A stretch of DNA of 33,035 nucleotides. Source: a virus. This document shows positions 1,225-30,946 of this stretch, piece by piece; the stretch's first letter is position 1; the number at the start of each line of letters is the position of its first letter. Both the position numbers and the translations under genes were made by a program. The notes under the pieces were generated by a model. The model was given only the letters and a program-made list of their open reading frames with translations. It was not told where the DNA came from and did no database searches. The stretch lies in IMG/VR virus record IMGVR_UViG_3300018083_000088, positions 1 to 33,035 of that record. One strand, given 5' to 3'.

Positions 1225-1278
1225 GGTATGTTACCCCTTTTTGGGTTGTTGTTGGCAACGGTTGTTGCCGGTTATATG

Positions 1279-1346
1279 CAACCGTATGTTGCATAATAAG
1301 CAACCTAACCGGCAAGGTTAGGTTGCCTATATATAACAACGGTTAT
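1279..1346 (-). repeat. Repeated intergenic module B (27-bp repeat plus perfect hairpin)
   Basis: It has the same 27-bp opening as module A (1279-1305) and the same end (GGTTGCCTATATA, AACAACGGTTA). The hairpin is a perfect 11-bp stem, 1300-1310 with 1316-1326, and a 5-nt loop. The hairpin arms differ from module A in sequence but not in position, which is the covariation-like pattern of a conserved structure. It separates the gene at 817-1224 from the genes upstream of it. Confidence 0.7.
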
Positions 1347-2261: not shown

Positions 2262-2271
2262 TACCCTACCC

Positions 2272-2478: not shown

Positions 2479-2504
2479 TGTTATAACCCCTTTTATAGGT
2501 TGCA

Positions 2505-2554
2505 GTTAACCGGCAACCCCACCCCGCGTTGGGGTGGGTAGGTTGCCGGTTAAC
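2505..2554. other. Long hairpin before the leftward gene cluster
   Basis: A near-perfect inverted repeat: 2505-2518 pairs with 2541-2554 (14 bp), and 2519-2525 with 2531-2537 (7 bp). It has a 5-nt loop and a 3-nt bulge at 2538-2540. It sits just upstream of the ribosome site of the 68-aa gene on the - strand, so it could be a 5' leader structure or the terminator of an upstream transcript. There is no U-tract. Confidence 0.7.
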
Positions 2555-3792
2555 CTTAACTTATAACGGTTGGTTGGTTGGTTGGTTGGTTAGCGGGGTG
2601 GGTTAATGGCGCGGTTTTATGGGGTATTTTACTTTATTTGCATACCCCTTGCCGGTTAACCCACCCTACGCTTTATAGCTTATTAAAATACAGTTTTTAT
2701 GGTAACTTGCCGTTAACGTTTACCCCTTGCATACCCCTTGCACTTATGCTTGCAACAACCCCGCAAGGTTGTTGTAAACAACTATAGTTTACCTACCAAC
2801 CGTTGCCGGTTGGTGGGCTATTTTTAGCCTACCATTACCACCCCTGTACGCATATGCTTATGCGCTATGCTTTGGTTGCCATTACAGGTTATGCGCTAAC
2901 TACGCGCGGTTTTAGCTTTGGTATAGTTACCACCCCACCCCTTGCGGGTTGGGTTGCACAATAGCGGGGTTAATATAGTTGTTGTATATGGCGCGTTGCT
3001 ATAGTGGCACAAAACATGGGTGCGCTTACGGGGTGGGGTATTTGTAACCCTAACCCCGCAACCGGCAACCCCTACTAAAATGCTAACTTATGCGTTGCGT
3101 TGGCAACATACTTTTAACCACAACCTATTGTATTAGGTTTTAACCAACCGTTGTTGGTATTGCGCTTTGGTTGGCTTACCGTTTATAGCCTAGCAACCCA
3201 CCCATATATGCACCCATATATGGGTTGTGCGGGTTGCCGTTGCTAGGTTGGTATTAGGGGTGGTATAACCCACCCACCACCTACCCACCACCCCACCCTT
3301 GCGGGGTGGTGGGTATAACGGCAAGGTTTACAAGCTAATTGCAAAGTTGTGTACTTTTGGCTTGTTACGTTTATTGCTGTATGTACTTGTTAACGTGCGT
3401 TGGTTGGTGGGTTGTTACCCCACCACCCCACTACGCGCATATGGTAGCTAACTTTTACCTTTTACGCGTAGGCTATGTAAAGCGGGTTGTAAACCGGCAA
3501 CAACGCTATAGCATTTAAGCATTGTTGCCAACCCCATGTTGGTAAGTGCAACCCGTTGCGTACTATGCAATGGGTTGCAACCCGTGTAGCTTGCGGGGTG
3601 GGTGGTGGGTGGGTGGGTTGCGCTTGCAACCCCTACCCCACCACCCAACCCCTTACTTAATGTGCAATACTACTATGCATAGCCTAGCATAGCTTGTGGG
3701 GTATGTAAAATTGCAATATAGGTAAAATGCAATAGCGTTGGGGTGGGTTGTTGGGGTGGGTTGCGGCAACCCATTGCCGGTTGCAGTTGTGC

Positions 3793-3816
3793 GGGGTGGG
3801 GTGGGGTGGGGTGGGG
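3793..3816 (+). other. (GGGGT)n G-quadruplex run
   Basis: Five GGGG blocks are separated by single T residues. Four G runs with 1-nt loops are the textbook condition for a very stable parallel G-quadruplex. Looser runs of the same kind occur at 453-490, 750-778 and 799-832. All of these are G-rich on the + strand, the template for leftward transcription. Confidence 0.75.
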
Positions 3817-4053
3817 TTGCATACGCGCGCGCATATATACGCGCGTAGGGTGGGTGGGTAACATGCTTTGTGGCGCGCGTAGGGGTGGGTAGGTGGGGTT
3901 TTAAGGGGTATTTTAGTACTACCCTACTATAAAAATAGCAAAACGCACCTACCCACCCCTACGCGCTTTGTAGGGGTGGTTTACATAACAGGTTAACATA
4001 AAGCGCATAAAACGTTTTAATGGCGCGCGTTGCGGCAACCCAACCGGCAAAAC

Positions 4054-4069
4054 TATTATTTGCCGGCAA
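4054..4069 (-). repeat. Inverted copy of the TTGCCGGCAA repeat
   Basis: TATTATTTGCCGGCAA is the exact reverse complement of the unit at 70-85. The palindrome extends to 14 bp here (4058-4071). See also 4747-4762. Confidence 0.7.
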
Positions 4070-4143
4070 ATTTTAAGGGGTTGTAAGGGGTTGCGGGGTT
4101 GCGTGTAGTGCTATGCGTTGCCGGTTGCCAAAGCGGGGTATAC

Positions 4144-4166
4144 GGTAATGTAAGGTAATAAGGTAA
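4144..4166 (+). repeat. Three GGTAAT iteron-like repeats in AT-rich DNA
   Basis: GGTAAT occurs three times within 23 nt, at the start of a roughly 200-nt A/T-rich stretch (about 4140-4340) that contrasts with the GC-rich DNA to its left. Direct repeats beside AT-rich DNA resemble a replication origin, but no DnaA box could be identified, and the common DnaA box TTATCCACA contains TC, which is excluded here. Confidence 0.35.
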
Positions 4167-4296
4167 TACAACTAATAAAAAAACGTGTATTATAAAAATA
4201 CCCATTTTACTGTATAGGGTAATTGCAACCCTAATACTTTGCTGTACAATACATTGTTGTTTACAATTTGCATTTATGTTAGTTTAGGCTAACTAG

Positions 4297-4782
4297 GCAA
4301 TTTTTGTTGCTTTAGCTTATTGTACAGTATGTTGCATACGCAACGCTATGTTGCATAACATACGCTATGTTGCGCTTTGTGGGTTGGGTTGCCGGTTGCC
4401 GCAACCCCGTTTTTACCCCACCCCGTAACAAAAATTGCGGGGTAATGGCGCGGCAAGGGGTATGCAATTTTTGTTGCGTAATAATAAATGCAACTTGTTT
4501 TTACTTTACACTTATTGTAATTGCCAGTGTAATAATAAAGGTAACTACGGCAATAGGGTTGTAGCAATACCCCATGCTAGTTTATACCTTGCAATGGCAA
4601 TTTGCCGCTTAACCGCAAATAAGGTGGGTACACGGGGTTTTACCATTATTGTAAAGTACCCGCTTTGGGGTGTTTTTTATGTTAAGCTAAAAGTACGCAA
4701 CAAAAATTGCCAACCGCTTTGTGCAACCGGCAACCCCTTACAACCCCATTATTTGCCGGCAAATTGCCGCAATTTTTGTTAC
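4297..4782. repeat. Five copies of a 14-bp repeat GCAATTTTTGTTRC
   Basis: Copies on the + strand are at 4297-4310, 4464-4477 and 4769-4782. Copies on the - strand are at 4425-4438 and 4697-4710. They therefore form inverted pairs (4425/4464 and 4697/4769). Each has a T5/A5 tract in a conserved frame. Such an array is typical of iterons, centromere-like parS arrays or repressor operators. A ParB-like protein is encoded about 1.1 kb to the right, an attractive but unproven partner. Confidence 0.65.
4747..4762 (-). repeat. Second inverted copy of the TTGCCGGCAA repeat
   Basis: Fifteen of 16 bases match the reverse complement of the unit at 70-85, with a 14-bp palindrome at 4751-4764. It lies 60 nt inside the right edge of the GA/TC-free segment, as the copies at 51 and 70 lie just inside the left edge. 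Confidence 0.65.
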
Positions 4783-4838
4783 ATGTTTTTTTGCCGGTTG
4801 GCGCGCGGGGTGGTGGGGTTGTCGGTTAGGTACTTTTG

Positions 4839-4862: not shown

Positions 4863-5176
4863 GCGGGGGGGCGGATCCACCCCATCCCCGATATTTGCAT
4901 CTACCACCCAAATTGATAAGGGAATGAAAGGGATAGTTTGCCCTTAGCATTGTAAAATTTTTTTTTTTTCGAATTATGTAAAGTAAAACTGTCCGTAAAA
5001 ACACCCATTTTTGACCCTTTTACGGAAAATATTTCGCGACGTTAGTCAAGGCTAACTTTTTTGGCTTTTGTTTACATAAAAAACCGTCCAAAAACGCTCA
5101 AAAAGTCCTCAAAAACAGATAAAAACAGATAAAAACGTCTTAAAACATCTTAAAACATCATAATATGTTAAAATTG
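4863..5176. promoter_or_regulatory. AT-rich junction region with curved DNA
   Basis: No gene is seen. GA/TC is present again. Contents in order: a GGATCC; a 12-T run (4958-4969); an inverted repeat of 9 bp, 4992-5000 with 5018-5026; GTTAGTCAAGGCTAAC (5041-5056) followed by six T, which could be a weak + strand terminator; and eight A-tracts starting at 5078, 5090, 5100, 5111, 5121, 5131, 5142 and 5152. The mean spacing is close to 10.6 bp, one helical turn, so the DNA should be intrinsically bent. An origin, packaging or promoter role is inference. Confidence 0.6.
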
Positions 5177-5350
5177 ACCATTTGCGCCATTTTATTTACG
5201 CGCCACAAGCTACGCAAACGCGCCACTTAACCCAAACTACCTAAACAACCTACAACGCGCCCACAGCGCGTTAATTTACGGCTGGCAAGGGGCAAAGCTG
5301 GCATTGTAGCTTTGCCCCTTGCACGCGTAAGCCTAAACCCTAGCTTTCTT
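5177..5350. other. Second GA/TC-free stretch (174 nt)
   Basis: Between GA at 5176-5177 and TC at 5350-5351 there is no GA or TC. Words such as ACGCGCC, TTGCGCC and GCAAGGGG are those of the left segment. It covers the intergenic DNA beyond the end of the leftward phage operon and stops within a few codons of the last gene's end. Confidence 0.9.
5285..5322 (-). terminator. Hairpin ending the leftward phage operon
   Basis: A perfect 15-bp inverted repeat, 5285-5299 with 5308-5322, with an 8-nt loop. It lies 18 nt beyond the stop codon of the last leftward gene. There is no long U-tract on the - strand, so termination may be Rho-assisted or the hairpin may protect the 3' end. Confidence 0.7.
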
Positions 5351-5669
5351 CGTCTACTTCCTCACCCAACAGTGATGAAGACTGTGGGGCCGGAGCCGTT
5401 TTCCCAAAATTCTTTCTGATTTGTGCCCTCTTCCTTTCCTGCTCTTCCACACTCACCACTCTTTTCTTCCTTATTGTGATTTGGTTATCGGGGAGTGTAA
5501 AGAACTTCCCTCCCCCCTTCCCTTCATGATATGCCACCAATCCAATCCGCTCAAACTTCCTAATCATAATAGGATCATCTGTATATACATCCCATTCTCC
5601 TGGCTTATCGCGCGACATAGATATATGAGTCTCACGCTCTTCCAACGTTAAATCTGTAAGTTTAATCAT
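5340..5669 (-). CDS. Conserved-type hypothetical protein with YTDDP motif (109 aa)
   Basis: No function recognised. The ATG at 5669 is preferred to one at 5747: GGGGGTG lies just before it and the ATG overlaps the upstream stop as ATGA, the pattern of this operon. The core (LTLEERETHISMSRDKPGEWDVYTDDPIMIRKFERIG, about residues 6-40) resembles small uncharacterised phage and plasmid proteins with an E-R-E-T and W-x-VYT-x-D-P-x-M pattern, perhaps a small alpha/beta or winged-helix-like domain. The tail is basic (ITIRKKR) then acidic. It is the last gene of the leftward operon. Confidence 0.75.
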   Translation of the reverse strand: MIKLTDLTLEERETHISMSRDKPGEWDVYTDDPIMIRKFERIGLVAYHEGKGGGKFFTLPDNQITIRKKRVVSVEEQERKRAQIRKNFGKTAPAPQSSSLLGEEVDEES

Positions 5670-5848
5670 ATCACCCCCAAGATCATCATCAACATCCATA
5701 ACAATCCCAAAAACATAATCATCCACAATATCATCCTCACCCACCAATCCAAATACTGCATCTCATCCAAACATATACTTCCCCCCAAAGCAATCAAAAA
5801 CACAGAAACAATCAAAATGGATTCCTTCATGATGTGATCCCATCCCAT
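5666..5848 (-). CDS. Small two-helix membrane protein (60 aa)
   Basis: The start ATG at 5848 shares its A with the stop of the ParB-like gene (TGATG), and its own stop overlaps the next ATG, so it fits the coupled operon exactly. An internal ATG at 5830 is an alternative. It has two hydrophobic segments: about residues 10-28 (SILIVSVFLIALGGSICL) and 40-60 (ILWMIMFLGLLWMLMMILGV). Two membrane spans in a very small phage protein fit a holin or another lysis or membrane accessory protein; a lysin is encoded 1.5 kb upstream in the same operon. Function is inferred from size and topology only. Confidence 0.6.
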   Translation of the reverse strand: MGWDHIMKESILIVSVFLIALGGSICLDEMQYLDWWVRMILWMIMFLGLLWMLMMILGVI

Positions 5849-6495
5849 CACCGTTCCACATCCCACACCCTGTGGAGCTGACTTCCCCCTACAATGGCTT
5901 CCTCCAGTAGATCGCTGGGGATCTCTTCTGTGAGGGCAGCTCTTACAGAAAATGAATTTCCAACTAAGATCAACCATAGAAGAGTCTGACGAAGAAACTC
6001 CTCATCTCCCTTCCTATCACAATACTTCACCACTCGTTCCGCTGTGTCTAGGATGTTGGGGGATCTACCATTCTCAACAAGATCCCCAACTGCATCATCT
6101 CCTAGCAGCTCCACCAATCTTGTAATCCTCTTCCTCAAACTCTCTGGAAATCCAACTGTAGAAAGGGGAAGTCCATGACTTACGGCATCCAACCATTGTG
6201 CCGGAGTAAGACTCATAGATTCCGCGTTGAGGACAACCCAAAGAGCTGGGGCATCTAATACTAATTCTTTATGAATTGCTACGGGAATCTCCTTCAATCC
6301 CAATAACTTCGCACAGGCTAGTCTACGATGTCCATCCGCGAGAACGCGATTCCAAGTCAGAGCTAATGGTTCCAAGATGCCGTGTTGCTGGATAGATATC
6401 ATCAATCCTGATAATGAATTACGATTCACTCTTCGTGCCGGATTGAAGTTGGCTACTGTAATCTGCGTAGGATTCAGGGTAGTGAATTCTGGCAT
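5848..6495 (-). CDS. ParB-like nuclease-domain protein (215 aa)
   Basis: The N-terminal part (about 10-75) matches the ParB/sulfiredoxin fold: a first segment with L-x-x-S-I-x-x-x-G-I-L-x-P-L, then ADGHRRLACAKLLG (53-66), the signature GxRR loop that binds nucleotide (CTP in true ParB), and a strand IPVAI. The rest is helical and unassigned; I see no clear helix-turn-helix. In phages such proteins act in DNA partition, as transcription regulators or as DNA nickases. The repeat array at 4297-4782 would be a candidate binding site, by proximity only. The start is well placed, 9 nt after the preceding stop at 6505. Confidence 0.8.
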   Translation of the reverse strand: MPEFTTLNPTQITVANFNPARRVNRNSLSGLMISIQQHGILEPLALTWNRVLADGHRRLACAKLLGLKEIPVAIHKELVLDAPALWVVLNAESMSLTPAQWLDAVSHGLPLSTVGFPESLRKRITRLVELLGDDAVGDLVENGRSPNILDTAERVVKYCDRKGDEEFLRQTLLWLILVGNSFSVRAALTEEIPSDLLEEAIVGGSQLHRVWDVER

Positions 6496-6504
6496 GATGT
6501 TCCT

Positions 6505-6762
6505 TTACTTCCTTTCTTCTTCTACTACATCTACGTTTACATCTAAGATCTCATTTATCATCTTCAACATCTCATCCATCCCTTCCTCAATCATCTCCCT
6601 CACAATCCCTCTAAGATGATTCATCTTCGCATTTCCCACCTCAAATTCAGATCTATAGATAATATCATCTATGATCTCTTTCTTCTTACCCTTCCCAATC
6701 TCTATCTTCATAATCTTCCCTTCCTCATCTTTCTTCACAATAGATACAATCATAGCTCCCAT
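6505..6762 (-). CDS. Hypothetical charged helical protein (85 aa)
   Basis: Unrecognised. GAGGAAG lies at good distance from the ATG. The first 30 residues are Lys/Glu-rich strands (IVSIVKKDEEGKIMKIEIGKGKKKEI); residues 45-75 form a probable amphipathic helix rich in Met, Glu and Ile. It ends 9 nt before the ParB-like gene. Confidence 0.65.
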   Translation of the reverse strand: MGAMIVSIVKKDEEGKIMKIEIGKGKKKEIIDDIIYRSEFEVGNAKMNHLRGIVREMIEEGMDEMLKMINEILDVNVDVVEEERK

Positions 6763-6780
6763 GTCACATCTTCCTCTATC

Positions 6781-6873
6781 TTACGTGATTAAATCGTATA
6801 CAGATTTCTTCTTCTTGACTGGTGGGCCGTAGTCATCTTCGTCTTTATCTTCATAGTTCCTAGTTCCTGTCAT
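6781..6873 (-). CDS. Micro-protein with GPPxKKKKSVYDLI tail (30 aa)
   Basis: A short frame between two predicted genes, overlapping the end of the upstream one by 14 bp. Its product is acidic at first (YEDKDEDDYG) and ends GPPVKKKKSVYDLIT. The same tail, GPPLRRKKKKSVYDLIEES, ends the 75-aa membrane protein at 7173-7400. Repetition of a specific 14-residue motif in frame, directly before another operon gene, is the reason to believe this is translated. There is no strong ribosome site; translation may depend on coupling. Function unknown. Confidence 0.55.
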   Translation of the reverse strand: MTGTRNYEDKDEDDYGPPVKKKKSVYDLIT

Positions 6874-10373: not shown

Positions 10374-12939
10374 TATCTCCCTCTGAAATGATCATGTCTT
10401 GGGCGAATCTAAACTTCTTGGGTGAATTGTTTGTGGCTGGGATTACTTCCATCCCGTAGTTGCGGATGAGATTGGGTTCCAATGCTTGAATGTGTTTTCC
10501 CAGAGATTGACCGCTTTCCCACATCCACTGATAATGTAATTTCATGGCTATTTGCTGAAAGATGCCATTAAGTTCTCCGGCTGTATGCCATTTCGTAGCT
10601 TCCATTCCAGATGTACCTCTTCCCTGCCGTTCCCCCATTGCTCTATCTTCGCGTAGCCATATATCTAAGACAGCGATCATGGGGCTAGATTCATGTAGCA
10701 AGACCTTTTGTCTATTGGTCATCATCTCTAAGCCTTTTATCAACTGCTCGCCATCTATGACCCCTTCTTCCCCATTTGTCATCCCCCGTATTCGATTGCA
10801 GAATACGGTAAAATCTGCAAGTCTACTCTCTGTGGGGGCCGGAGCCGTTTTTACCTTGCGGAGCTCCTCTACAGTTTTGTTGAGCATCCCCATGATCCCC
10901 ATCCATATACCATCTATGTTATGTAGGATCTTATTTTGCATTGAGTATTCCGGAGTTGGCTTCTTGATGGCAGATAGCTCAATTGGTAAGAGCCGTGTGA
11001 AAAGGCTTTCCTCGGAGAAAGGTAAGGAAGTGGCGGTAAGAATGATGAAGCAATCTGGTAAGATACGTTGGATCTCGTTGGTTGTGTGCAATTTACGGAG
11101 TTCAATGTGGGTTCCTGTAGATATGCGATTGAGAAGGTCTACGAGCCAATAGCTCTTATTCTTTTCTAGGTTATCTAACACTATGAACTTATGCGCTCCC
11201 ATAGAAGCGCGAAGACTATCGGGCTTATCGGCAACCACACCGTTCACATTGGAGTGCGGGCCTTCAAGGATGTATAGGAATCTACGTGCTGCCGTTGTCT
11301 TGCCAGCCCCAGGATCAGCAATGATAGTAAGAAGAGGGCGGGTAGGCATGATATCTGGAAAGAAGGTAGCTAGGAACCAGGCTTTTATGAGTTCTCGCTG
11401 TTGTGATGGTGATACACCTGTAGACCCGATACCAAAACTTAAATCGTTTACTAAAAAACTCCAGGGGTTTAATCCCTTAATCCCTTTATCCCTTGCTTGA
11501 TCTAGATCTATATGCAAGCTACTATCTCTATTGCGGAAGATTATATCCTCTTCCCCGTTAAGATGTTTGTTGCCCCATACATCTCTGTGATTATCTTCCC
11601 CGCTAAGTACGTAATTATAAGATGTACCTAAATTGATGTAGAGCTTCTCCCCATTCCAATAGCTGCGATTGTACGCTCGTATCTTGTGGGCATTCTCCCT
11701 TGAGCTATGATAGATACCTCTGGCAGTAGATGTGCCAAAGCTATCAGCAGTATTGAGACCGAAGGTATTGTAGAGGATGGTATCCCAATAGCTATCTTCC
11801 ATACTGTGCAAATGGTGACTGGTCTTGTCTAACCAGAAGAGCTTTTCTGTGGCTGTATCTACGACAATCCTACCCTTTTCTCGCAAGTAGGATACGACGG
11901 CACTCGCAGCACTCCTGCTCTTGAGATAAGTAACGCCTTTTCCTAAGCGTATCCTATCTAGCAATACCATGATGGGAGTTATATTTTGCTTCGCTATTGC
12001 TTCAGCTAACCTACGGATAATAGTACCAGGAAGTCTATCGGTAAGAGCTTGCAAGCCTAGTATCTGACCACCGTCACGGTGCTTTTCATAGGTATCTCTT
12101 ACACATTGGAGCTGATTGGTAAGATCACCCCCTGCTGCCGTGTTCAGCCTTTCTATGACGCCCATAGCGTCTTCCTCATCCCATCCGGCTGTAGCCAGCC
12201 AGCCGGATAGAAAAAGAGCTAAATCGTGACGTTGGCCTTCAATCCAGAATCCAGCTAGGGTCTGGATTATGATTTCAGTGGGATCTTCATAGCCAGATAA
12301 ACAGGACGCGAATTCCTCTAGCGTGCAGAGCTTGTCTAATACTTCCGTAGGCTCTAAACTTGTACCTTCTTCCCACTTGGTATACGGCAGAACAAACATA
12401 CTGCGATTCTTGGTAACTGGATGCAGACCTAGCGGAACTTTGACTAGATTGCCAAGTGGATTACTATCTGTGAGCTTGTCTTGTTTGGGGAAGATTTCTA
12501 TGTGTGGGTCACCGCTGATTCCAGCTCCTACAGCCTCTCTCATTTCGCTGGCTAACGCTCTTACGTTTTCTGCAGGAGCTGGTTTATTGAAAAATACCCA
12601 TAGATGATAGCCCTTGTTGCCGGAGAATTCTATAGCATGTGGGATACTTTGTAGGAGATTAGATAGCTTTAGGGTTAGATCTCTGGCTTTCCCCAGATCA
12701 CTACTATCTACATCAAAGCACATCCAGAATACTGTGTTGTCTGGCCGTAGCGTGTATGCACCTATGACTACTTCTCCCAGAAGATGTTGCTCTACTACTC
12801 TCTCTTTGGGAATCTCCATCATGGGGGAGTAGACCGTCTCCTCTTTGCCGTTGCTGTTTGTACGTTTTCCCCCTATTGCATAGTAATTATTCCCAGTGAA
12901 AAATCGCTTGAGAATTGTACTGGAAAGACCTGCCATCAC
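10291..12939 (-). CDS. PrimPol-helicase, AEP primase fused to AAA+ ATPase (882 aa)
   Basis: N-terminal archaeo-eukaryotic primase domain of the TOTE/PrimPol type (about 10-240): HLLGEVVIGAYTL, the metal-binding FDVDS, SGNKGYHLWVFF, and IEIFPKQ followed by GNLVKVPLG. A middle region (240-520) is partly helical. The C-terminal superfamily 3/AAA-type ATPase has Walker A DPGAGKT near 545, FIVLDNLEKN as Walker B, and an ATSLPF sensor followed by an arginine-rich FTRLLP. The protein would prime and unwind at the phage fork. It overlaps the polymerase stop by 4 bp, a tight replication pair. Its 3' end is overlapped by the methyltransferase gene. Confidence 0.85.
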   Translation of the reverse strand: MMAGLSSTILKRFFTGNNYYAIGGKRTNSNGKEETVYSPMMEIPKERVVEQHLLGEVVIGAYTLRPDNTVFWMCFDVDSSDLGKARDLTLKLSNLLQSIPHAIEFSGNKGYHLWVFFNKPAPAENVRALASEMREAVGAGISGDPHIEIFPKQDKLTDSNPLGNLVKVPLGLHPVTKNRSMFVLPYTKWEEGTSLEPTEVLDKLCTLEEFASCLSGYEDPTEIIIQTLAGFWIEGQRHDLALFLSGWLATAGWDEEDAMGVIERLNTAAGGDLTNQLQCVRDTYEKHRDGGQILGLQALTDRLPGTIIRRLAEAIAKQNITPIMVLLDRIRLGKGVTYLKSRSAASAVVSYLREKGRIVVDTATEKLFWLDKTSHHLHSMEDSYWDTILYNTFGLNTADSFGTSTARGIYHSSRENAHKIRAYNRSYWNGEKLYINLGTSYNYVLSGEDNHRDVWGNKHLNGEEDIIFRNRDSSLHIDLDQARDKGIKGLNPWSFLVNDLSFGIGSTGVSPSQQRELIKAWFLATFFPDIMPTRPLLTIIADPGAGKTTAARRFLYILEGPHSNVNGVVADKPDSLRASMGAHKFIVLDNLEKNKSYWLVDLLNRISTGTHIELRKLHTTNEIQRILPDCFIILTATSLPFSEESLFTRLLPIELSAIKKPTPEYSMQNKILHNIDGIWMGIMGMLNKTVEELRKVKTAPAPTESRLADFTVFCNRIRGMTNGEEGVIDGEQLIKGLEMMTNRQKVLLHESSPMIAVLDIWLREDRAMGERQGRGTSGMEATKWHTAGELNGIFQQIAMKLHYQWMWESGQSLGKHIQALEPNLIRNYGMEVIPATNNSPKKFRFAQDMIISEGDNEDESVSGTERNAGRGITIDLLRASEE

Positions 12940-14969
12940 GCCACCTCAAGGATCTGATGTGAAATGATCTCCTGCGTGTAGGATTTCCAATCAATACTTG
13001 CTACGTCAAAGGTTTCCTTGATCTTCTTTAGTGTGCCATAGCTCTTGCCAATTTTAGCTTCTGCATTAAAAGGCAATCCAAAGACATCTTCCACTTCCAT
13101 TACGCGCAGGAGAACCGGAACAGCTTGTTCTACGCATTCATCCCTGATTTCAAATATAGCTTCATCATGGACAATGCTGAGAACGCCGCCCCATCCTTGA
13201 GTAGATACCACTTTGTCAGCTCTTACAATAGCTAATGACATGATCCCCGCTGCTCCTCCCTGAATTTGTGCGTTCGCTCCCTTGTACATTTTCAAGGGAT
13301 CGTCTTCCTTCCAAATTCTACCATCCCAATATCTTATGTATCCTTGTTTCGTACCTTTCTTGATTACCTCATTGAGCCAGGGCTGGATTCTGGGGAACGT
13401 TTTCCAGTATTGCTGAGCAATTCGTTGAGCTTCTTCGGGGGTCTTGTTGAGCTTATATTGTAGAGAACCTGTGGTCATGCCGTAGATAAGTCCAAAACCA
13501 ATGGCTTTTGACCATTCGCGATGTAGATCATTCTCTTCCGGCCCACAGTCACCCCATACACTAAGAGCTACGCGCATGTGGATATCTTCGCGGTTTTTAA
13601 GAGCCAGCATCATCACTGGCTCTTGTGCCAAGATACCGAACATTCTCATTTCTTGTTGTCTATGATCAATAGAAACCAGGGAGAATCCAGGCTTTGAAAT
13701 AATAGCTTGCCTGAGATTATATTCGCCCTGACGGACACCTCCTCCGCTAAAGACTCCAGTGTCTTCTCTAGCTCTATGCGATGACGGAATATTTTGAAGG
13801 TTAGGACGAGACGAGGAAAGTCTTCCAGTTCTAGTTCCTGTGATATTGAAGGTTCCGTGGATAATATGATCGTCATCAGCTAGCTCCTTGTATTCGTCTA
13901 AAAAACCTATGAGCTTGGCGCATTCCCGCATTTCCAAGATAAGCCCACCGAGAGGATGTGAGCCCTTTTCCATGAGAATAAAACTACTAGTCCTATACTT
14001 GTTGTATTTGTTGACGTGCGCCATTCTGGATCTATCGACTCCATCAGGATCCGCGAATGGGTTCTCAGGCTTTGCAATCCCCATATCCTCATATATGGCC
14101 TTTGATAGTTGTGGCCCGCTTCGCCAATTGAATACTTTGCCACAAGCTTCATATAAATCCCTTTCTAAGGATTCCAAATTGCTGGATAGAATTTTCTTTG
14201 CATCACGCATGAAAGTAGTATCTAAAGCTAAACCACGACGTTCCATCTTCTGCAGAACTTTTAGATACCTCATCTGTAGAGCTAAGATCCCGTTTAACTT
14301 CCATCTTTCCATTTGAGGAAGGAGAACTTGGGATAATTGTTCTGTGACTATGCAATCATTCACACAGTATTCAGCGAGATTGTTTAACGTCCAATGCCAG
14401 GGCATGAGTTTGGATTCACCTTTATTGAGCTCTACATGACCTCTCTTACTGCTAGTGTTTAGGAAATGTTGCTCTGCACTTTCCATGCCCTTCTTTAAGC
14501 GGGAATCAAATAAATGTATGAGAACGGTTGTGTCTAACACTTTGCATGGAAGTTCCCACAACAGAAGATCAAGAAAATGAGCATCAAACTTAAGATTGTG
14601 ACCTATGAGGGTAGTGTTTGGATCATTCGCCATATAGAAGACAGCAGCTTTAGCTTCGGCAACCAAGTCTTCATCTGGGACGGCTGTGGGCCGTTTCTTT
14701 TCGGTGATTACGTATTCGAAGACCTTGCTTCCAACACTACTACGACTGTAGTCACGTTTTCCCAGCCACATCTTTTTCCTAACTGGTGTGCCGTAGGCTA
14801 TGTTTTCATACGTACAAGTAGGAAAATAACCTGCAATATCTAGTGCTGGACAGTAGATTCCCACACCTATGATCATGTCTTTATACCAACTGAGGCCAGT
14901 TGTTTCTGTGTCGATGACTAGAGTATGACCTTTGCAGGAGCGGATTTGCTCTAGCGTTAGGAATTCCAT
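12936..14969 (-). CDS. polA: DNA polymerase I family A with 3'-5' exonuclease (677 aa)
   Basis: Phage replicative polymerase. The exonuclease domain (1-200) has DTETTGL (20-26), LIGHNLKFDAHFL and NDCIVTEQL. The polymerase domain has motif A SIDHRQQEMRMFG, motif B with EWSKAIGFGLIYG (the catalytic Lys and Tyr of the O helix) and motif C SIVHDEAIFEI. There is no 5'-3' exonuclease domain, and the length matches T7-like polymerases. It is coupled to the genes on both sides by 1- and 4-bp overlaps. All catalytic acids that I can place are intact. Confidence 0.95.
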   Translation of the reverse strand: MEFLTLEQIRSCKGHTLVIDTETTGLSWYKDMIIGVGIYCPALDIAGYFPTCTYENIAYGTPVRKKMWLGKRDYSRSSVGSKVFEYVITEKKRPTAVPDEDLVAEAKAAVFYMANDPNTTLIGHNLKFDAHFLDLLLWELPCKVLDTTVLIHLFDSRLKKGMESAEQHFLNTSSKRGHVELNKGESKLMPWHWTLNNLAEYCVNDCIVTEQLSQVLLPQMERWKLNGILALQMRYLKVLQKMERRGLALDTTFMRDAKKILSSNLESLERDLYEACGKVFNWRSGPQLSKAIYEDMGIAKPENPFADPDGVDRSRMAHVNKYNKYRTSSFILMEKGSHPLGGLILEMRECAKLIGFLDEYKELADDDHIIHGTFNITGTRTGRLSSSRPNLQNIPSSHRAREDTGVFSGGGVRQGEYNLRQAIISKPGFSLVSIDHRQQEMRMFGILAQEPVMMLALKNREDIHMRVALSVWGDCGPEENDLHREWSKAIGFGLIYGMTTGSLQYKLNKTPEEAQRIAQQYWKTFPRIQPWLNEVIKKGTKQGYIRYWDGRIWKEDDPLKMYKGANAQIQGGAAGIMSLAIVRADKVVSTQGWGGVLSIVHDEAIFEIRDECVEQAVPVLLRVMEVEDVFGLPFNAEAKIGKSYGTLKKIKETFDVASIDWKSYTQEIISHQILEVA

Positions 14970-15241
14970 TAGTTCCTCCTGTCTCCCATGTTAAGATAAG
15001 TGTTTTCCTCTAAAATATAACCTACATCTTCAACCGTTATATCTGTATCTATTTGCCTCATCAGAGATAGATGGAAAGCTGCAAGAATGAAAGAGTTACC
15101 AACTTCTACCTGATCCACAGGTAGAAGTTGGGTTGTGCGATTCCATCGCAGGATAAAGAGAACTTCCTTGATAGTAGCCTCTAAATGTTCCCCTGAAAAT
15201 GTCCTGGTCTCAAATAGGAACTTCAGGTCTTTGACGTTCAT
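14969..15241 (-). CDS. Hypothetical protein (90 aa)
   Basis: Unrecognised. It overlaps ThyX by 4 bp (ATGA) and shares one base with the polymerase start. Helical, with a central nonpolar stretch (SFILAAFHLSLM) too short and polar for a sure membrane span. Its place between ThyX and the polymerase suggests a replication role only by association. Confidence 0.7.
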   Translation of the reverse strand: MNVKDLKFLFETRTFSGEHLEATIKEVLFILRWNRTTQLLPVDQVEVGNSFILAAFHLSLMRQIDTDITVEDVGYILEENTYLNMGDRRN

Positions 15242-16053
15242 TTGTCTACCTTACGTGATTTGTAGACACGATTATCTTCGACAGCCCATTCAAAAGTGCA
15301 TTGTCCCTCAACTCTCTCCCATCCTTGATATAGACATTTGTGGGGAAGATTGTTGATGCCTGGGCCGGACTTTTCGCAACTAATTTTGATATGAGGTTCT
15401 AGCCATTCACATTTTTCTAGCAAAGCTATCTTCATTAGTCTCATGATCTCTACCATCTCTGGGAAGAACATTTGACAAGCTCTGTAGCTATATAAGGCTA
15501 GAAATTCACTTAAAGGATAGGAACATATGATATACGTCTCGACAGCGGTGGGAGTTATAGATCTTACGTCTTGTATAGGGATTCCCATATCAGCAAGCAT
15601 CTTATAGGCTTTTCTGGCTGTATTGATAGCGTGAAGCCAGATTTGCGCTGCTGCTCCATTGGAAGCTATCTCCACTGGCATACGAACGTTGAAGTTACCC
15701 ATATCTGCGTATCTTTGGGATTGTTGAGCGAAGGAAGCTTTACGAGTTCTGACTAGCTGATGAGTAAGAGATCTTGTAACTCCGCTGCATTCAAAGGAGA
15801 CCGTCATCCACTCTAGGGCTTGATTAAGTCCTCCCTTAAACATATCATCAACTACGATCTCGTCTATATCATCATCTTCTATGATATTGCCCTTTACGGC
15901 AACAGAAGCTTTCGTCATAAGTTTGTAGAAATCTTGCTTATCAGGCCAATTGAGAAGCTTAACCTTAAGATTTTCATAGCCTATGTCATTCCTGCCAGTT
16001 TGATCGGGAGCTATGTTATCTTGACCAGAATTTCTGGTGGAAAAGGTTGTCAT
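15238..16053 (-). CDS. thyX: Flavin-dependent thymidylate synthase-like protein, RTR variant (271 aa)
   Basis: ThyX family: SLTHQLVRTRKASFAQQSQRY (97-115) is the signature region, and the C-terminal part (helices around LSEFLALYSYRACQMFFPEM) fits the fold. ThyX uses FAD, NADPH and methylene-tetrahydrofolate to methylate dUMP to dTMP. The signature RHRx7S reads R102-T103-R104-x7-S112, so the His is replaced by Thr. The rest of the motif, QQSQRY, is intact. The family is usually 210-270 aa, so it is full length. The change could tune substrate or cofactor use, for example towards a hydroxymethyl or other modified pyrimidine, which is inference. It sits in a run of nucleotide-metabolism genes. 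Confidence 0.87.
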   Translation of the reverse strand: MTTFSTRNSGQDNIAPDQTGRNDIGYENLKVKLLNWPDKQDFYKLMTKASVAVKGNIIEDDDIDEIVVDDMFKGGLNQALEWMTVSFECSGVTRSLTHQLVRTRKASFAQQSQRYADMGNFNVRMPVEIASNGAAAQIWLHAINTARKAYKMLADMGIPIQDVRSITPTAVETYIICSYPLSEFLALYSYRACQMFFPEMVEIMRLMKIALLEKCEWLEPHIKISCEKSGPGINNLPHKCLYQGWERVEGQCTFEWAVEDNRVYKSRKVDK

Positions 16054-16054: not shown

Positions 16055-16432
16055 TTACTTCCCCTTAAAATTATTATCGTCTAGGACGAAGATGGAGATA
16101 ACTGCTTGATTAATGATGTCCAAGAGCTTATCACGGATTTGCTCCTTATACTGTTTGCCGTAGTCATCGTTCTCGAAGATCATATACTTGAGGCGGAAGG
16201 CATCTCCAACTAGCGTTGTGACTGTGCCAATAAGACCAAAGACGGTGAAGGCATCTTTGTACATCTTATTTCGATCTAGGAAGATATCTTTGGCTTCTAC
16301 GACCACTCTATCATATTGCTCAGAGCGAGATGGTTGCTGGACAATCCTCAGATCATGTCCAGCTATAGTGCCGAAGGTTGCGCTAGAGCTAAATCTGTAT
16401 TCATCCTTTAGTTCACTATCTCTATCTGGCAT
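16055..16432 (-). CDS. DUF1599-like nucleotide-modification-associated protein (125 aa)
   Basis: The start is uncertain: ATG at 16432 overlaps the upstream stop by 11 bp; ATGs at 16465 and 16579 are possible but overlap more and have weak ribosome sites. The segment AKDIFLDRNKMYKDAFTVFGLIGTV, then DAFRLKYM and IRDKLLDIINQAVISIFVL, resembles the DUF1599 family (nucleotide modification associated domain), which often accompanies phage genes for altered bases. The match is by pattern only. It lies directly beside ThyX and the MazG-HAD fusion. Confidence 0.55.
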   Translation of the reverse strand: MPDRDSELKDEYRFSSSATFGTIAGHDLRIVQQPSRSEQYDRVVVEAKDIFLDRNKMYKDAFTVFGLIGTVTTLVGDAFRLKYMIFENDDYGKQYKEQIRDKLLDIINQAVISIFVLDDNNFKGK

Positions 16433-17411
16433 GTGTTTTATCTTCTTTCGTTTCTTCGATGGCATTTGAGATTTTCCAGAACTGTGTTTCTTCCTCGATG
16501 AGATGAGTTGTTCTTGAGGGGACAAAGAGATGCTGATTGTACGGTTGAGGATAGATGAATACGGGAATGTTGCTCCCATTGTATCTCCTTATCAAGAGGG
16601 GATCATCTTCTATCGCTACTACATGATTCTGTACAGCTAGATCACTGGCTACTAGAACACGATCATCATAACCAAAGTGTAGCTCATCTACGGTGATATC
16701 GTTATCTCGTAACCAGATCCATGTATCTCCCCAGATGCGTTTGTAGGTAGAATAGGGACGAGCTGTATAGACGATGATGTACCAACCAGATGATCGTAGA
16801 GTATTGATCGCCATCTTGGTGTTGGTATATATTGGAAGAAGACTGTAGCCTCCATCTTTCTCGAAAGCTACTTTAGCACGATTGTATAACTTGAAATCCC
16901 AACCGTTGTTGATATCAAGATGTAAACCTATATCTTCCTCTTTGATAGTGAGGATATCTTTCCAATCGTTATCGGCAATCCACTCCATAAAGCCTCTGCG
17001 GAAATCAGCAATTACGCCATCTAAATCAAGCATAATGATGTTAGCCTGTTGGATGGCAGGTCTTGTTTCCTGAAACATAAGCTGATTAAGGATATCACCT
17101 TTTTTATACATGACTTCCAGCATATCTAAAGGTGAGAATCCTATAAGTTGCCACATACTGAAGATGTATTTCGTGATATCAGCTAGTTCCTCCTGTATGT
17201 TGGGGCCGAAGCTCTCAAGTGAAGCATCAAGTGAAGATATGCGATGAGTCTTCCAGTTAGTTTGATCTAGAAGCTCACTGAGCTCGCTGTGTGCGCCCAG
17301 AATGTAGTTGATGAGCCATTCTGAGTTCGTGCGCTTTTGCTGATTGCGGATCAGAGTATTGTAGGATTCCTGCTGATCCCAAATTTCATACAACTCTCGC
17401 TGACGTTTCAT
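16422..17411 (-). CDS. MazG-like pyrophosphatase fused to HAD-type 5'-nucleotidase (329 aa)
   Basis: The start is ATG at 17411: it overlaps the upstream stop as ATGA and has GGGAGG before it; the longer frame to 17477 is not needed. The N-terminal all-alpha NTP-pyrophosphatase half (1-115) has E43, E46 and EELADI (74-79), the metal-binding pattern of MazG/dUTPase-2 proteins. The C-terminal HAD half (125-300) has DLDGV (129-133), VYTAR and a late DDPLL; it resembles deoxyribonucleotidases. One protein could take a dNTP to dNMP and then to the nucleoside, or remove an unwanted nucleotide during base modification. The reading frame is continuous, so the fusion is real in this assembly. Confidence 0.75.
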   Translation of the reverse strand: MKRQRELYEIWDQQESYNTLIRNQQKRTNSEWLINYILGAHSELSELLDQTNWKTHRISSLDASLESFGPNIQEELADITKYIFSMWQLIGFSPLDMLEVMYKKGDILNQLMFQETRPAIQQANIIMLDLDGVIADFRRGFMEWIADNDWKDILTIKEEDIGLHLDINNGWDFKLYNRAKVAFEKDGGYSLLPIYTNTKMAINTLRSSGWYIIVYTARPYSTYKRIWGDTWIWLRDNDITVDELHFGYDDRVLVASDLAVQNHVVAIEDDPLLIRRYNGSNIPVFIYPQPYNQHLFVPSRTTHLIEEETQFWKISNAIEETKEDKTHAR

Positions 17412-18229
17412 AGTCCTCCCAGAAACTCGGCAGTATCTCGCCGAGCTTGATGACTGAGATATCCAGGGGTGAAGCAAGCTACTCTACCGACGCTAAAGAG
17501 ATTGTCTTCTATACGCTCATCCCAGCTTAGAGGTGGAGTTTCTGGAAGGAGATCAGGTAATAGCTGGATCTTGCCTCCACCGTTTCCTCTCTCTTCTTCA
17601 TAGCTCATGATTCTACTTATATCTGATAGAGCAGCGTATTCAGTGAAGATCTTCCCAGGTACTACGGTCTGACGTACCCACGGAGCTAGATTTGCTCCGT
17701 TATATAAGACTACATGATTGTTGGCCGTACTCTGGTTGTGATAGATGGGAATCTTGGTGAAGTAGCCTTTTTCTGCATATCTCTGACGAAGAGATCTCGC
17801 TGGAAATGTGCAGATAACGGCTTCTCTTCTCTCTTTTAGAGCGTATACTTGCTCCCCCTCCAGGAATCCCACGTTACTTTTGCGGGGAATCATACCCCAT
17901 AGAGTGACGAGAAGATCATCTAACATATATAGATATTCATTGACGTATTGAAGCTTGCCGTTCTGGAATCTCCGATGTGCGCTAGTTTCTACTAGGCAAT
18001 CCCATTGGTTCAGAGAATATCCATCACATGTACCTAACAACGCACTCATCACAATTTGCGGTTGCCAGGGGATAGGGGATTCATACATGAAAACAGCACC
18101 TATAGGAACTGACATATCCGTATAGAGAACTTCTATCTCGCTGGGATCATAATCAGCGTCAAGGCATCCCCAATAACTGTAGATTGCACTAAGACCACCA
18201 CCGATGATGCTGATCTTGGCCTCATTCAT
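17408..18229 (-). CDS. FAD/NAD(P)-binding oxidoreductase-like protein (273 aa)
   Basis: It begins with a dinucleotide-binding turn, ISIIGGGLSAIYSYWGC, the GxGxxA/G type of FAD or NAD(P) proteins. There is little else I can assign: a Pro-rich turn SPIPWQPQ, several Tyr/Trp-rich segments, and VGRVACFTPGYLSHQARRDTAEFL near the end, in the place where FAD proteins have GDxxxxxxxxxxGxxSG. That region may be the second FAD contact. It overlaps both neighbours by 4 bp. In this gene group it could reduce flavin for ThyX or act in base modification; neither is shown. Confidence 0.6.
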   Translation of the reverse strand: MNEAKISIIGGGLSAIYSYWGCLDADYDPSEIEVLYTDMSVPIGAVFMYESPIPWQPQIVMSALLGTCDGYSLNQWDCLVETSAHRRFQNGKLQYVNEYLYMLDDLLVTLWGMIPRKSNVGFLEGEQVYALKERREAVICTFPARSLRQRYAEKGYFTKIPIYHNQSTANNHVVLYNGANLAPWVRQTVVPGKIFTEYAALSDISRIMSYEEERGNGGGKIQLLPDLLPETPPLSWDERIEDNLFSVGRVACFTPGYLSHQARRDTAEFLGGL

Positions 18230-18615
18230 TTCCTATGTAGCTCCCTTCCAAACTGCATCTTTGCCATATCAGCAGCATCTCGGATATGGGTGGCATCTAC
18301 TTTGGTGCGCTCTATCAACCCTTTCCATTGACCAGGATTCATGCTCACTACGTTGAAGCCAGCTATCTTATAGAATCTCTCTAACGTATCGTAGATCCTA
18401 GATTGATCTTTGTTGGGATGTACTGTTTGGGCCGGAGGGATTTCTATTACAATGGTAGAAGGTTTGGTCATAGTAGCTAGAGACATGATAAAGATCTCAG
18501 AATCAAAACAAGCTGCATTGCAGACCATTCCCCACATGAAATTCCCACCTGCTAGATAGCTGATCCCAGTGGTCTCTCCAGGATCAAAAGCTAGAATTCT
18601 AGATGAAGATATCAT
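18226..18615 (-). CDS. RuvC-like Holliday junction resolvase (129 aa)
   Basis: RNase H-fold nuclease. ILAFDPGETTGISY (7-20) carries the first catalytic Asp11 and the GxTG turn. TIVIEIPP (54-61) carries Glu58. THIRDAADMAKMQ has Asp113 and Asp116 as the third acidic site. Such phage resolvases cut branched DNA before packaging. The ribosome site AAGGAAT lies just after the terminator hairpin at 18633-18660. It overlaps the next gene as ATGA. Confidence 0.8.
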   Translation of the reverse strand: MISSSRILAFDPGETTGISYLAGGNFMWGMVCNAACFDSEIFIMSLATMTKPSTIVIEIPPAQTVHPNKDQSRIYDTLERFYKIAGFNVVSMNPGQWKGLIERTKVDATHIRDAADMAKMQFGRELHRK

Positions 18616-22150: not shown

Positions 22151-22195
22151 TTTTCTGAGCCTTTCTGGGCGTATTATTTAGTTGCAAGGGGTATA

Positions 22196-22206
22196 TTACA
22201 GTGTAA
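22196..22206. promoter_or_regulatory. TACAGTGTA operator-like dyad, copy 1
   Basis: TTACAGTGTAA is an 11-bp odd palindrome whose core TACAGTGTA recurs exactly at 22305-22313. One copy is near each end of the divergent promoter region, 108 bp apart, as expected for a repressor controlling both operons. Confidence 0.5.
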
Positions 22207-22303
22207 CACAGCTTGCACTACGGCGCAAATTGGCTTATATATAACGTATACCCCACTTTACTATATTTTGTGTAGCACAGCTTTACAAAGGCTATATTTT
22301 GTG

Positions 22304-22314
22304 GTACAGTGTAC
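22304..22314. promoter_or_regulatory. TACAGTGTA operator-like dyad, copy 2
   Basis: GTACAGTGTAC, the same core as at 22197-22205 with symmetric but different outer bases. Conservation of core plus preserved outer pairing supports a binding site for a dimer. A TGTACAGTATG word at 4321-4331 in the left segment is a looser match. Confidence 0.5.
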
Positions 22315-22354
22315 ATAACAGAATCTTTGCTAGATATAGGAAAGAAGTTAGACT

Positions 22355-29263: not shown

Positions 29264-29640
29264 CACTTCCTAGCTTTATCAGTGGAATCCTGAGGAGTGC
29301 GAGAGAGCGGGAATTAGTGGAGGATAATCGGGCGTCAGAAGCATGGCGCAGGATTAATCTTAAACCATATTCTGCAGTCTTCTCGACTCCTGCTGGGACT
29401 TTGCTGCCGTCACAGACCGTAAGATTGGAAAGTGATAACAGTTCATTGCTCTTGGGGAGTACGGCAGGGACAGCCCCAGTCAGAAGAGTTATTATCTACG
29501 GTATTATAAATCATATAACTTTACCTGATACAGATATGAAGGAAGGCTATACATTCATCTTCAGCAATGATGAATATCGCTGTACAGATATCATCGTAAC
29601 TTTGGGGGAAATCCAAGGAATCTGGGAGAGCTCTGGATGA
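29257..29640 (+). CDS. Head closure-like beta protein (127 aa)
   Basis: Mainly strands and turns (LKPYSAVFSTPAGTLLPSQTVRLES, VRRVIIYGIINHITLPDTD, YTFIFSNDEYRCTDIIVTLGEIQGIWE). Size, beta content and position after the first connector suggest the head-closure or stopper (SPP1 gp16-like) protein. No firm motif. Its stop overlaps the glycosyltransferase start as ATGA. Confidence 0.5.
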   Translation: MVTLPSFISGILRSARERELVEDNRASEAWRRINLKPYSAVFSTPAGTLLPSQTVRLESDNSSLLLGSTAGTAPVRRVIIYGIINHITLPDTDMKEGYTFIFSNDEYRCTDIIVTLGEIQGIWESSG

Positions 29641-30425
29641 GGAAAGCCTTCTGTACTTTTGGGGTTGGGCCGTATGCTGAAGTTTTAGATGTAGCACGTC
29701 CTACCTTTGAGAAGTATTGCGATCTTCACGGGTATCAATACTTTGAGCAATATCCCCGCATCATGGGTAAGTTAGAACGTCCTCCGGCATGGGGGAAAGT
29801 ATACATGATGATGGAATTGTTGGAAGATTACGATGTAGTCTTATGGATAGATTGTGATGTACTTATTTTGAAATTCGATATAGATATAGATGACTGTGTG
29901 CCGTTAGAAGATATCCAAGCAATTGTGAAGCATCAATCTGGTGAAGCGCAAATTCCCTCCACTGGCTTTTGGTATGCAAGACATGAGATGATACCATATC
30001 TAGAGAAGATATGGAGTATGGAGAAATTCATACATCATCAATGGTGGGAGCAGGGAGCTTTTCAGAATTTATTGGGATATGACCAAGATCTAGCTTATCT
30101 TCTCGCTCGTCCGAGGAGAGTACGGGAAACAGAGCTATATCATAAAACTTATATCCTAAGCGAAGAGTGGAATAGTGTAGACAATGAGAATCTAAATAGC
30201 GAAGCTAGAGTCATGCACTTCCCTTCGCATGATGCTCATTTAAGAGCTAATCTAATGCGAAAATGGTTAGCGCATGAAGAAGACAAATCCTCTGGAAAAT
30301 GTATGCAAGTTAAGAAGGATATGGATAATGATGAACAGCGAAACCCTGGGACAGATAATGGAATCGGAGAATTTGGATCTCGTGAAGCAGAAGATCCAGG
30401 ACAAGTACGGCTTCACGCCAACTGA
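29637..30425 (+). CDS. Glycosyltransferase, GT34-like A-fold (262 aa)
   Basis: Nucleotide-sugar transferase with the A-fold metal site DCD (72-74) in DYDVVLWIDCDVLI. Upstream, WGKVYMMMELLEDYD fits the GMA12/MNN10 pattern; downstream, PSTGFWYARH and WWEQGAFQNLL are typical acceptor-side motifs. The last 40 residues (from about 30300) run out of character and overlap the next gene's frame by about 98 bp. A transferase between head-closure and tail genes is unusual and suggests that a virion protein or the host surface is glycosylated. It is joined to the preceding gene by a 4-bp overlap, so it belongs to the operon. Confidence 0.75.
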   Translation: MRKAFCTFGVGPYAEVLDVARPTFEKYCDLHGYQYFEQYPRIMGKLERPPAWGKVYMMMELLEDYDVVLWIDCDVLILKFDIDIDDCVPLEDIQAIVKHQSGEAQIPSTGFWYARHEMIPYLEKIWSMEKFIHHQWWEQGAFQNLLGYDQDLAYLLARPRRVRETELYHKTYILSEEWNSVDNENLNSEARVMHFPSHDAHLRANLMRKWLAHEEDKSSGKCMQVKKDMDNDEQRNPGTDNGIGEFGSREAEDPGQVRLHAN

Positions 30426-30531: not shown

Positions 30532-30946
30532 TGTTCCGCTTACGGCACAGGCATCAGGTGGAATCTTCGCCTATACAGCTTTGGGCCGTCAGGGAATTAT
30601 GCGAGATACACATCCTTCTTCATATGATGCGACAGGTTATGTAAAGCCCCTCATCGTATTGAAGGCAAGAGCTCCTGTCGCATTGCCTGACATCTTCGAC
30701 GAGAAGGAAAAGATCGTATCTCAAAGTCAGGTAGTTGAATTCTGGATGTATCAGTGGGTAGGATATGATATCATAGAGATCATGGGGAATCATCTTCACC
30801 GCCTATTGCAAGGTCATAAGTTTGACGGCTACTATCCTGTGATGTGGGATATGGTGACTGGCCCCATGATTGATGGGGGATCTCTGAAAGGTGCATCTGT
30901 AGTTAGACGGGATTATTACTTCAAGAATATCTTGGTTGCCGTATGA
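30482..30946 (+). CDS. Hypothetical connector or tail-terminator-like protein (154 aa)
   Basis: GGAG lies 6 nt before the ATG at 30482; the frame extends 15 nt upstream to a TTG that is less likely. Mixed strands and helices (IVLKARAPVALPDIF, QVVEFWMYQWVGYDIIEIMGNHLHRLLQGH, then VRRDYYFKNILVAV). The shape, with a helix ending in HLHRLLQ and a final strand YFKNILVA, resembles tail-terminator or neck proteins, and position agrees. It overlaps the next gene as ATGA. Confidence 0.55.
   Translation: MNPVSMEAMNLTYLQNDVPLTAQASGGIFAYTALGRQGIMRDTHPSSYDATGYVKPLIVLKARAPVALPDIFDEKEKIVSQSQVVEFWMYQWVGYDIIEIMGNHLHRLLQGHKFDGYYPVMWDMVTGPMIDGGSLKGASVVRRDYYFKNILVAV

Follow-up and report, generated by a model that had tools for sequence, protein, structure and literature searches.

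A phage gene joining a dimeric-dUTPase-like NTP-pyrophosphatase domain to a deoxyribonucleotidase-like HAD domain, beside flavoprotein-like and ThyX-family genes

The 33,035-nucleotide viral DNA that we analyzed (IMG/VR record IMGVR_UViG_3300018083_000088, the window) encodes a 329-residue protein in which an N-terminal NTP-pyrophosphatase domain resembling dimeric dUTPases is followed by a HAD domain resembling 5'(3')-deoxyribonucleotidases. The fusion gene is real and conserved, and it is probably a variation on the already known phage nucleotide-pool hydrolases. With a probability of roughly 0.55, we propose that its product is a bifunctional nucleotide hydrolase, likely acting on a uracil- or thymine-type substrate, in a ThyX/flavoprotein module that shapes the pyrimidine dNTP pool. 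This module is the most interesting side of the fusion gene. The order of genes on the minus strand is RuvC-like, flavoprotein-like, fusion, small phrog_1485-like, ThyX, a small ORF, PolA-type polymerase and a primase-helicase-like ORF, with the following features:

18226..18615, minus strand: RuvC/Holliday-junction-resolvase-like gene upstream of the cassette (phrog_1770, 0.0012)
17408..18229, minus strand: flavoprotein-like gene with an N-terminal motif of Rossmann type (GGGLSA); stop codon overlapping the start of the fusion
17415..17420, minus strand: GGGAGG, ribosome-binding-like, three bases 5' of the fusion ATG
16422..17411, minus strand: fusion gene, 329 aa, ATG at 17411, stop codon 16424..16422
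17064..17393, minus strand: predicted N-terminal all-alpha NTP-pyrophosphatase domain, dUTPase_2-like, residues 7-116, with ExxE at 43-46 and ExxD at 75-78 (Pfam and AlphaFold2 helices)
16521..17048, minus strand: predicted HAD domain, 5'(3')-deoxyribonucleotidase-like, residues 122-297, with nucleophile D129, and D131 (Pfam NT5C, Foldseek, VIA-align)
16055..16432, minus strand: small neighbour gene, phrog_1485-like (6e-5), starting at internal Met 50 of a 174-aa ORF
15238..16053, minus strand: ThyX-family gene with RTR replacing RHR (Pfam Thy1, 4.3e-25)
12936..14969, minus strand: downstream ORF, probable DNA polymerase I-type gene

The first-pass annotation of this DNA had described a single frame at 16422-17411, coordinates that are exact, leaving the minus strand unmentioned, and had read it as an NTP pyrophosphatase joined to a HAD nucleotidase. 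Indeed, at least 40 relatives (95% identity) share both domains. The EExxD motif it named is E74-E75-L-A-D78, with an ExxE (E43, E46) N-terminal to it, and the DxDGV motif is D129-L-D131-G-V133; the protein contains the further HAD motifs T216-A-R-P and E268-D-D. The start codon of the fusion and the stop codon of the upstream flavoprotein-like gene overlap as ATGA.

Early IMG/VR scans gave three relatives, and queries with the HAD half and with eight members gave many more (the best 80 of at least 130 in one scan). The fetched loci contain at least 71 ORFs with both domains, at least 43 of them distinct and at least 40 at 95% identity. Since both domains stand in one frame in at least 71 ORFs, and since 4 of the 10 relatives scanned pass the Pfam gathering scores of both dUTPase_2 and NT5C, the fusion is more than a chance association. 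The earlier suggestion to look for the same fusion in other phages succeeded in IMG/VR and not among isolates: in tblastn searches with four different members against 50,697 isolate-phage records, no match covered 80% of the query, and the matches listed cover the HAD half. One scan of genome contigs for host or prophage copies gave 68 pattern matches and no relative. A further 38 ORFs (33 distinct) are HAD-only relatives with no detectable N-terminal domain. A quick HAD-domain tree of 40 fusion and 33 HAD-only rows needs two changes between the states, and a single fusion event may be compatible with it. In the papers covered by our literature search, neither this fusion nor the flavoprotein-HAD gene pair is described.

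The closest Pfam family to the N-terminal half of the window protein was dUTPase_2 (PF08761), with E 0.0023 and 18.7 bits, below the gathering score of 22.9. MazG-like followed with E 0.11 (13.2 bits versus a gathering score of 27), and no match to MazG (PF03819) was listed. Seven of 10 further relatives passed the dUTPase_2 gathering score and none the MazG cut-off, the one PF03819 match being in L140 (21 versus 22 bits). At E ≤ 0.1, Pfam matched dUTPase_2 in seven, NT5C in six and MazG-like in three of eight members. The earlier label 'MazG-like' therefore gave the right superfamily, although among named Pfam families dUTPase_2 comes closest, and the PDB profile search does not tell the two apart. 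In that search, the N-terminal-half profile matched a designed coiled coil (0.00039), then the pyrophosphatase 4qgp (0.00083), then the Leishmania dUTPase 2cje (0.0016). Since the MazG-type 4qgp ranks above the dUTPase and a coiled coil comes first, the families are not cleanly separable by sequence. The matches of a whole-protein profile of eight members were all weak (best 0.0031) and fell on dimeric dUTPases, MazG/DCTPP1-type pyrophosphatases and 5'(3')-deoxyribonucleotidases. An AlphaFold2 model from eight sequences (mean pLDDT 84.3, pTM 0.77; a four-row model with pLDDT 62.6 was set aside) shows four long helices and then the HAD domain. Because the HAD half filled the VIA-align list, the helical half was assigned from its sequence and predicted secondary structure. 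We conclude that the N-terminal half probably has a dimeric-dUTPase-like NTP-pyrophosphatase fold, nearest in Pfam to dUTPase_2.

The metal tetrad E43, E46, E75 and D78 is present in the window protein, and 33 of 40 relatives have acidic residues at all four positions. It is broken in seven (L108, L001, L110, L016, L114, L130 and L148), which suggests that some phages do without the first step or have it in a changed form. Invariant over 40 members are Q14, D78, K81, K104, D129, D131, R218, P219 and W233; W53 (39 members), E75 (37), E43 (35) and E46 (35) are nearly so, and position 18 is Asn in 25 and Thr in 13. The uracil site of the Campylobacter jejuni dUTPase is described as Gln14, Asn18 and Asn22, and that account reports the site as unconserved in two MazG-like relatives (PMC2954211). 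Q14 (40/40) and N18 (25/40) share the spacing of C. jejuni Gln14/Asn18, a correspondence mapped by spacing only and with the third Asn unmatched. In dimeric dUTPases, the motif-IV His is presented as responsible for uracil specificity, and S. aureus phage dUTPases are described as also devoid of it (PMC5608427). The motif-IV His-Phe couple is absent from our members, which have Lys81 (40/40) and Tyr82 (38/40). As a Lys takes the place of the uracil-specificity His throughout, the substrate may differ from plain dUTP.

The DxDGV half had been called a nucleotidase, and NT5C, Foldseek and VIA-align agree on a 5'(3')-deoxyribonucleotidase-like HAD. The window protein matched NT5C (PF06941) with E 6.7e-5 and 23.3 bits, below the gathering score of 24.8, which 6 of 10 further relatives passed. 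The HAD catalytic residues D129, D131, T/S216 and D269 are intact in 39/40. The top PDB match of the predicted structure in Foldseek was human mitochondrial deoxyribonucleotidase 1q92 (3.9e-6), and VIA-align superposed the model on 1z4i with Z 16.5 (rmsd 2.8, 183 aligned). Of the top 14 VIA-align rows (Z 15.5-16.5), 12 are deoxyribonucleotidases or similar proteins and the other two are designed esterases; row 15 drops to 13.8. In the HAD-half profile search of PDB sequences, the hypothetical protein 1xpj (0.00084) came just ahead of deoxyribonucleotidase 2jao (0.0021).

The flavoprotein-like gene, for which a profile was iterated by E-value alone, is upstream of all 40 fusions, at about 210 bases or less in 38 and at 446 and 1180 bases in the others; the weakest match among these loci was L130 (1.3e-5). 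Of the 38 HAD-only ORFs, 37 (32/33 distinct) also have it upstream at a distance of 1.5 kb or less, the exception being L174. Among 80 loci fetched with PolA, the fusion-bearing L015 and L016 have the flavoprotein, and the other 78 are without both HAD and flavoprotein. The label rests on a GxG motif (68 of 79 distinct ORFs), on actinophage annotation and on matches of L016 and three actinophage members to phrog_8720; no Pfam family exceeded its cut-off in the members scanned. Direct BLAST of the window flavoprotein against the actinophage members was not significant (best 0.079), and the link between them runs via L004 (5e-8, 26-sequence set) and the iterated profile. L016 has two flavoprotein-like genes in tandem ahead of its fusion (5166-6071 and 6068-6838).

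On the other side of the fusion, the start of the small neighbour gene was placed at Met 50 because its relatives begin there. Of the 40 fusion loci, 21 have a member of its family within 6 kb, and the PDB matches of the family were designed coiled coils. An assignment to DUF1599 (nucleotide modification associated domain 1) is not claimed, as one of eight members matched, with E 0.084. Further downstream the polymerase is, by its motifs, probably PolA, and the ORF after it is presumably primase-helicase-like, named in the same way. The DNA polymerase I-type gene of the window is 88, 87 and 47% identical to its relatives.

ThyX lies within 8 kb of 34 of the 40 fusions; of the six loci without it, five end within 5 kb downstream and L153 within 7.8 kb. 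Thy1 exceeded its cut-off in 17/17 fusion-bearing contigs searched, of which G007 and G009 carry the same fusion. One of the 17 (G016) encodes a trimeric dUTPase, adjoining its fusion, and the PurZ family PF00709 was found in none of these contigs, all of which are possibly fragments. L004 also has a separate MazG (PF03819, 38.7 bits). In the isolates SirHarley, LuckyLeo and phiRKBJ001, the flavoprotein-HAD pair and ThyX occur in one region. The presence of flavoprotein-like and thymidylate-synthase-like genes beside the fusion in relatives suggests that it is probably part of an unstudied DNA-building-block system.

The RHR motif is described as highly conserved in ThyX and as contacting FAD, and distinctive ThyX motifs are already known (PMC6514825 and its reference 7). 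We compared 69 distinct ThyX-family ORFs from the fetched loci, 64 with HAD in the locus and five without. RHR was kept in 5/5 ORFs of the HAD-free loci, four of these five rows being alike, and in 3/64 ORFs of the HAD-bearing loci, or 3/45 after leaving out 19 doubtful rows (degenerate or tandem ThyX-like ORFs, or no letters at the motif). Among SirHarley, LuckyLeo and phiRKBJ001, the motif is RQR in two and RSR in one. The L135-L147 group has tandem overlapping or adjacent ThyX-like ORFs, neither with RHR (e.g. 15059-15931 and 15900-16643 in L140).

The window has a further peculiarity, which the first-pass annotation had speculatively ascribed to altered DNA chemistry connected with the fusion: a run of 4783 bases (39-4822) contains no GA and no TC, the longest such run in 200 shuffles being 87 bases. 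The GA+TC density is 161 per kb in the fusion gene and 150 per kb in window 5348-33035. We checked 15 of the 17 fusion-bearing contigs whole (G009 and G016 were left out; contigs may be fragments). A GA/TC-free run of at least 595 bases occurs in five: the window (4783), G002 (4721), G004 (2348), G005 (599, at the contig end) and G013 (595). The region is at the equivalent place in G002, G004 (in pieces) and G005. G008 has a GA/TC-depleted start with a longest run of 226 bases, G001 ends where the region would fall (longest run 169 bases), and the other eight have no run over 107 bases. Because the exclusion is confined to 39-4822, a genome-wide base change cannot alone explain it, and because 8/15 fusion-bearing contigs are free of it, the fusion is not sufficient for it. 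We therefore reject the proposed causal link. Short GA/TC-free runs are also found outside the long region, at 5176-5347 (171 bases) and 22164-22321 (157 bases), with runs of 153-172 bases at similar places in G001, G002, G004 and G005. In the distant fusion-bearing phage G013, positions 2464-3395 (piece L214) form a 931-base GA/TC-depleted stretch with runs of 213, 123 and 595 bases and two interruptions.

With an NTP-pyrophosphatase fold in front of a nucleotidase HAD, the route from dNTP via dNMP to nucleoside that the first-pass annotation had drawn is plausible from sequence. Phage enzymes that drain nucleotides in a comparable way are described, namely the NT5C-like dTMP phosphatase of PBS1 (PMC12697855) and the Wayne fusion that turns dATP into adenine (PMC12884076). 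The N-terminal helical domain would convert a dNTP to dNMP and pyrophosphate, and the C-terminal HAD domain would strip the last phosphate, leaving the nucleoside; the fusion would thereby spell out the reaction order from triphosphate to monophosphate to nucleoside. We infer both activities, any channelling between them and the substrate, most likely a uracil- or thymine-type deoxynucleotide. The fusion would work together with the adjacent flavoprotein-like gene and the ThyX-family enzyme to shape the pool of pyrimidine dNTPs while the phage replicates. Taken as a whole, the first-pass annotation was right about the fusion, the domain types and a plausible route, its GA/TC link is not supported, and it missed the strand, the flavoprotein-like gene and ThyX.

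For this pool-shaping reading we counted the single-frame fusion in at least 40 distinct relatives, the 4 of 10 relatives above both Pfam cut-offs, the intact HAD residues (39/40) and acidic tetrad (33/40), the Q14/N18 spacing, ThyX in 17/17 contigs and within 8 kb of 34/40 fusions, a trimeric dUTPase in only 1/17, the flavoprotein in 40/40 loci and the deoxyribonucleotidase structural matches. Against it we counted competition with ThyX for dUMP, Lys81, the loss of the tetrad in 7/40, Thr for N18 in 13/40, the PDB profile search that leaves MazG-type enzymes and dUTPases unseparated and the 33 HAD-only relatives. If ThyX needs plain dUMP, a pyrimidine nucleotidase next to it would defeat its own purpose unless it acts on another nucleotide (e.g. 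dTTP/dTMP) or the ThyX product is unusual. Since a dUMP-removing nucleotidase would compete with ThyX, we rank the pool-shaping module first and plain dUTP house-cleaning second. In such house-cleaning, which we consider unlikely, the N-terminal half would be the phage dUTPase, which guards the DNA against uracil and supplies dUMP to ThyX, and the HAD would trim surplus dNMPs or act on an unrelated phosphate ester. This would fit dUTPase_2 as the nearest Pfam family, ThyX in all 17 contigs searched and the missing trimeric dUTPase in 16 of them. However, ThyX needs dUMP, which a fused pyrimidine nucleotidase would squander, 7/40 have lost metal ligands, the motif-IV His is replaced by Lys in 40/40, and G016 has a trimeric dUTPase right beside its fusion.

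It is similarly doubtful that the phages replace or hypermodify a base, with the variant ThyX and the flavoprotein making a 5-substituted dUMP and the fusion destroying the competing dTTP or dUTP. The RHR His is rarely kept in cassette ThyX (3/45 rows with an RxR-type motif in the same context, 3/64 in all), the flavoprotein-like partner is constant (40/40), and phage precedents for nucleotide draining are described: the dU-phage PBS1 has an NT5C-like dTMP phosphatase (PMC12697855), and in the 2-aminoadenine Arthrobacter phage Wayne one protein with two fused steps takes dATP to adenine (PMC12884076). On the other hand, none of the 17 contigs has a PurZ homologue, the GA/TC bias is regional and not genome-wide, and the ThyX controls amount to five rows, four of them alike, in a family whose distinctive motifs were known before (PMC6514825, its reference 7). 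The papers listed by our literature search were silent on DNA modification in Troll4-type phages. More broadly, flavoprotein, HAD (alone or fused to the pyrophosphatase half) and RHR-less ThyX might together modify pyrimidine nucleotides in many phages, as a system so far unrecognised in which an altered dUMP/dTMP derivative is made and the competing canonical nucleotide is destroyed by the fusion; we put this forward as a speculative and rather improbable extension. If our reading of the genes as a module is right, the isolate pair annotated as 'oxidoreductase' and '5' nucleotidase', 'phosphatase' or 'nucleotide pyrophosphohydrolase' would be one functional unit tied to an atypical ThyX, and the flavoprotein/ThyX module would be testable in cultured actinophages, e.g. 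SirHarley and LuckyLeo. Finally, a T4 Pnkp-like nucleic-acid end phosphatase with a non-catalytic N-terminal helper is very improbable: the best PHROG of the fusion protein is phrog_415, annotated polynucleotide kinase (3.6e-8), the T4 Pnkp phosphatase aligns in VIA-align (Z 12.8) and the tetrad is broken in 7/40, but the alignment to deoxyribonucleotidases is better (Z up to 16.5), Pfam puts NT5C first for the window protein, and the protein has no kinase domain.

Among known systems, the dimeric dUTPases (PF08761; C. jejuni, trypanosomatids, S. aureus phages) share with the fusion the all-alpha fold by profile, ExxE...ExxD, the uracil-site Gln/Asn spacing and a WK motif. The fusion differs from them in Lys for the motif-IV His, a short domain without a recognised motif V, the fused HAD and the tetrad losses. 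The 5'(3')-deoxyribonucleotidases (NT5C, including the PBS1 dTMP phosphatase) have the same HAD motifs DxD, T and DD and are the top structural matches of the C-terminal half, whereas the fusion is about 15-18% identical to the solved enzymes and has the N-terminal pyrophosphatase and the flavoprotein-like partner gene. DmtZ-DutZ of phage Wayne offers an analogy, as a single phage protein that converts a canonical dNTP via dNMP into a dead-end product; unlike the fusion, it is described as built of unrelated NDT-like and Dut-like domains in phages with PurZ (PMC12884076), which was found in 0/17 of our contigs. MazZ of cyanophage S-2L is likewise an all-alpha NTP-PPase that acts on the nucleotide pool of a phage (PMC8342488), but is (d)GTP-specific and has no fused nucleotidase.

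The actinophages Gordonia LuckyLeo, Mycobacterium SirHarley, Streptomyces phiRKBJ001 and Nocardia P3.1 have the same flavoprotein-HAD pair, annotated as 'oxidoreductase' and 5'-nucleotidase, with ThyX (RQR or RSR) in the same replication region in the three checked; in contrast to the fusion, their HAD has no N-terminal domain, and their polymerase is DnaE-type by annotation. In Nocardia phage P3.1 (L011), the annotated CDS at 4966-5667 and the HAD match (ORF 4911-5633) are read in different frames. AUO78964 of Salinibacter phage M8CC-19 (L225 28207-29121, 304 aa), annotated as hypothetical, also joins two such domains, dGTP_diPhyd_N (PF18909, 96.7 bits) and then an NT5C-like HAD. Considered as a relative on a weak structural match, it was ruled out as a different fusion: its N-terminal family is another one, unmatched by the N-domain profile of our fusion, and the HAD profile matched it with 15.3 bits only. 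Elsewhere in the window, downstream of terminase and structural-type ORFs, lie two glycosyltransferase-like genes at 29637-30425 and 30943-32085 (GT34 under its cut-off; Glycos_transf_1, 46.8 bits).
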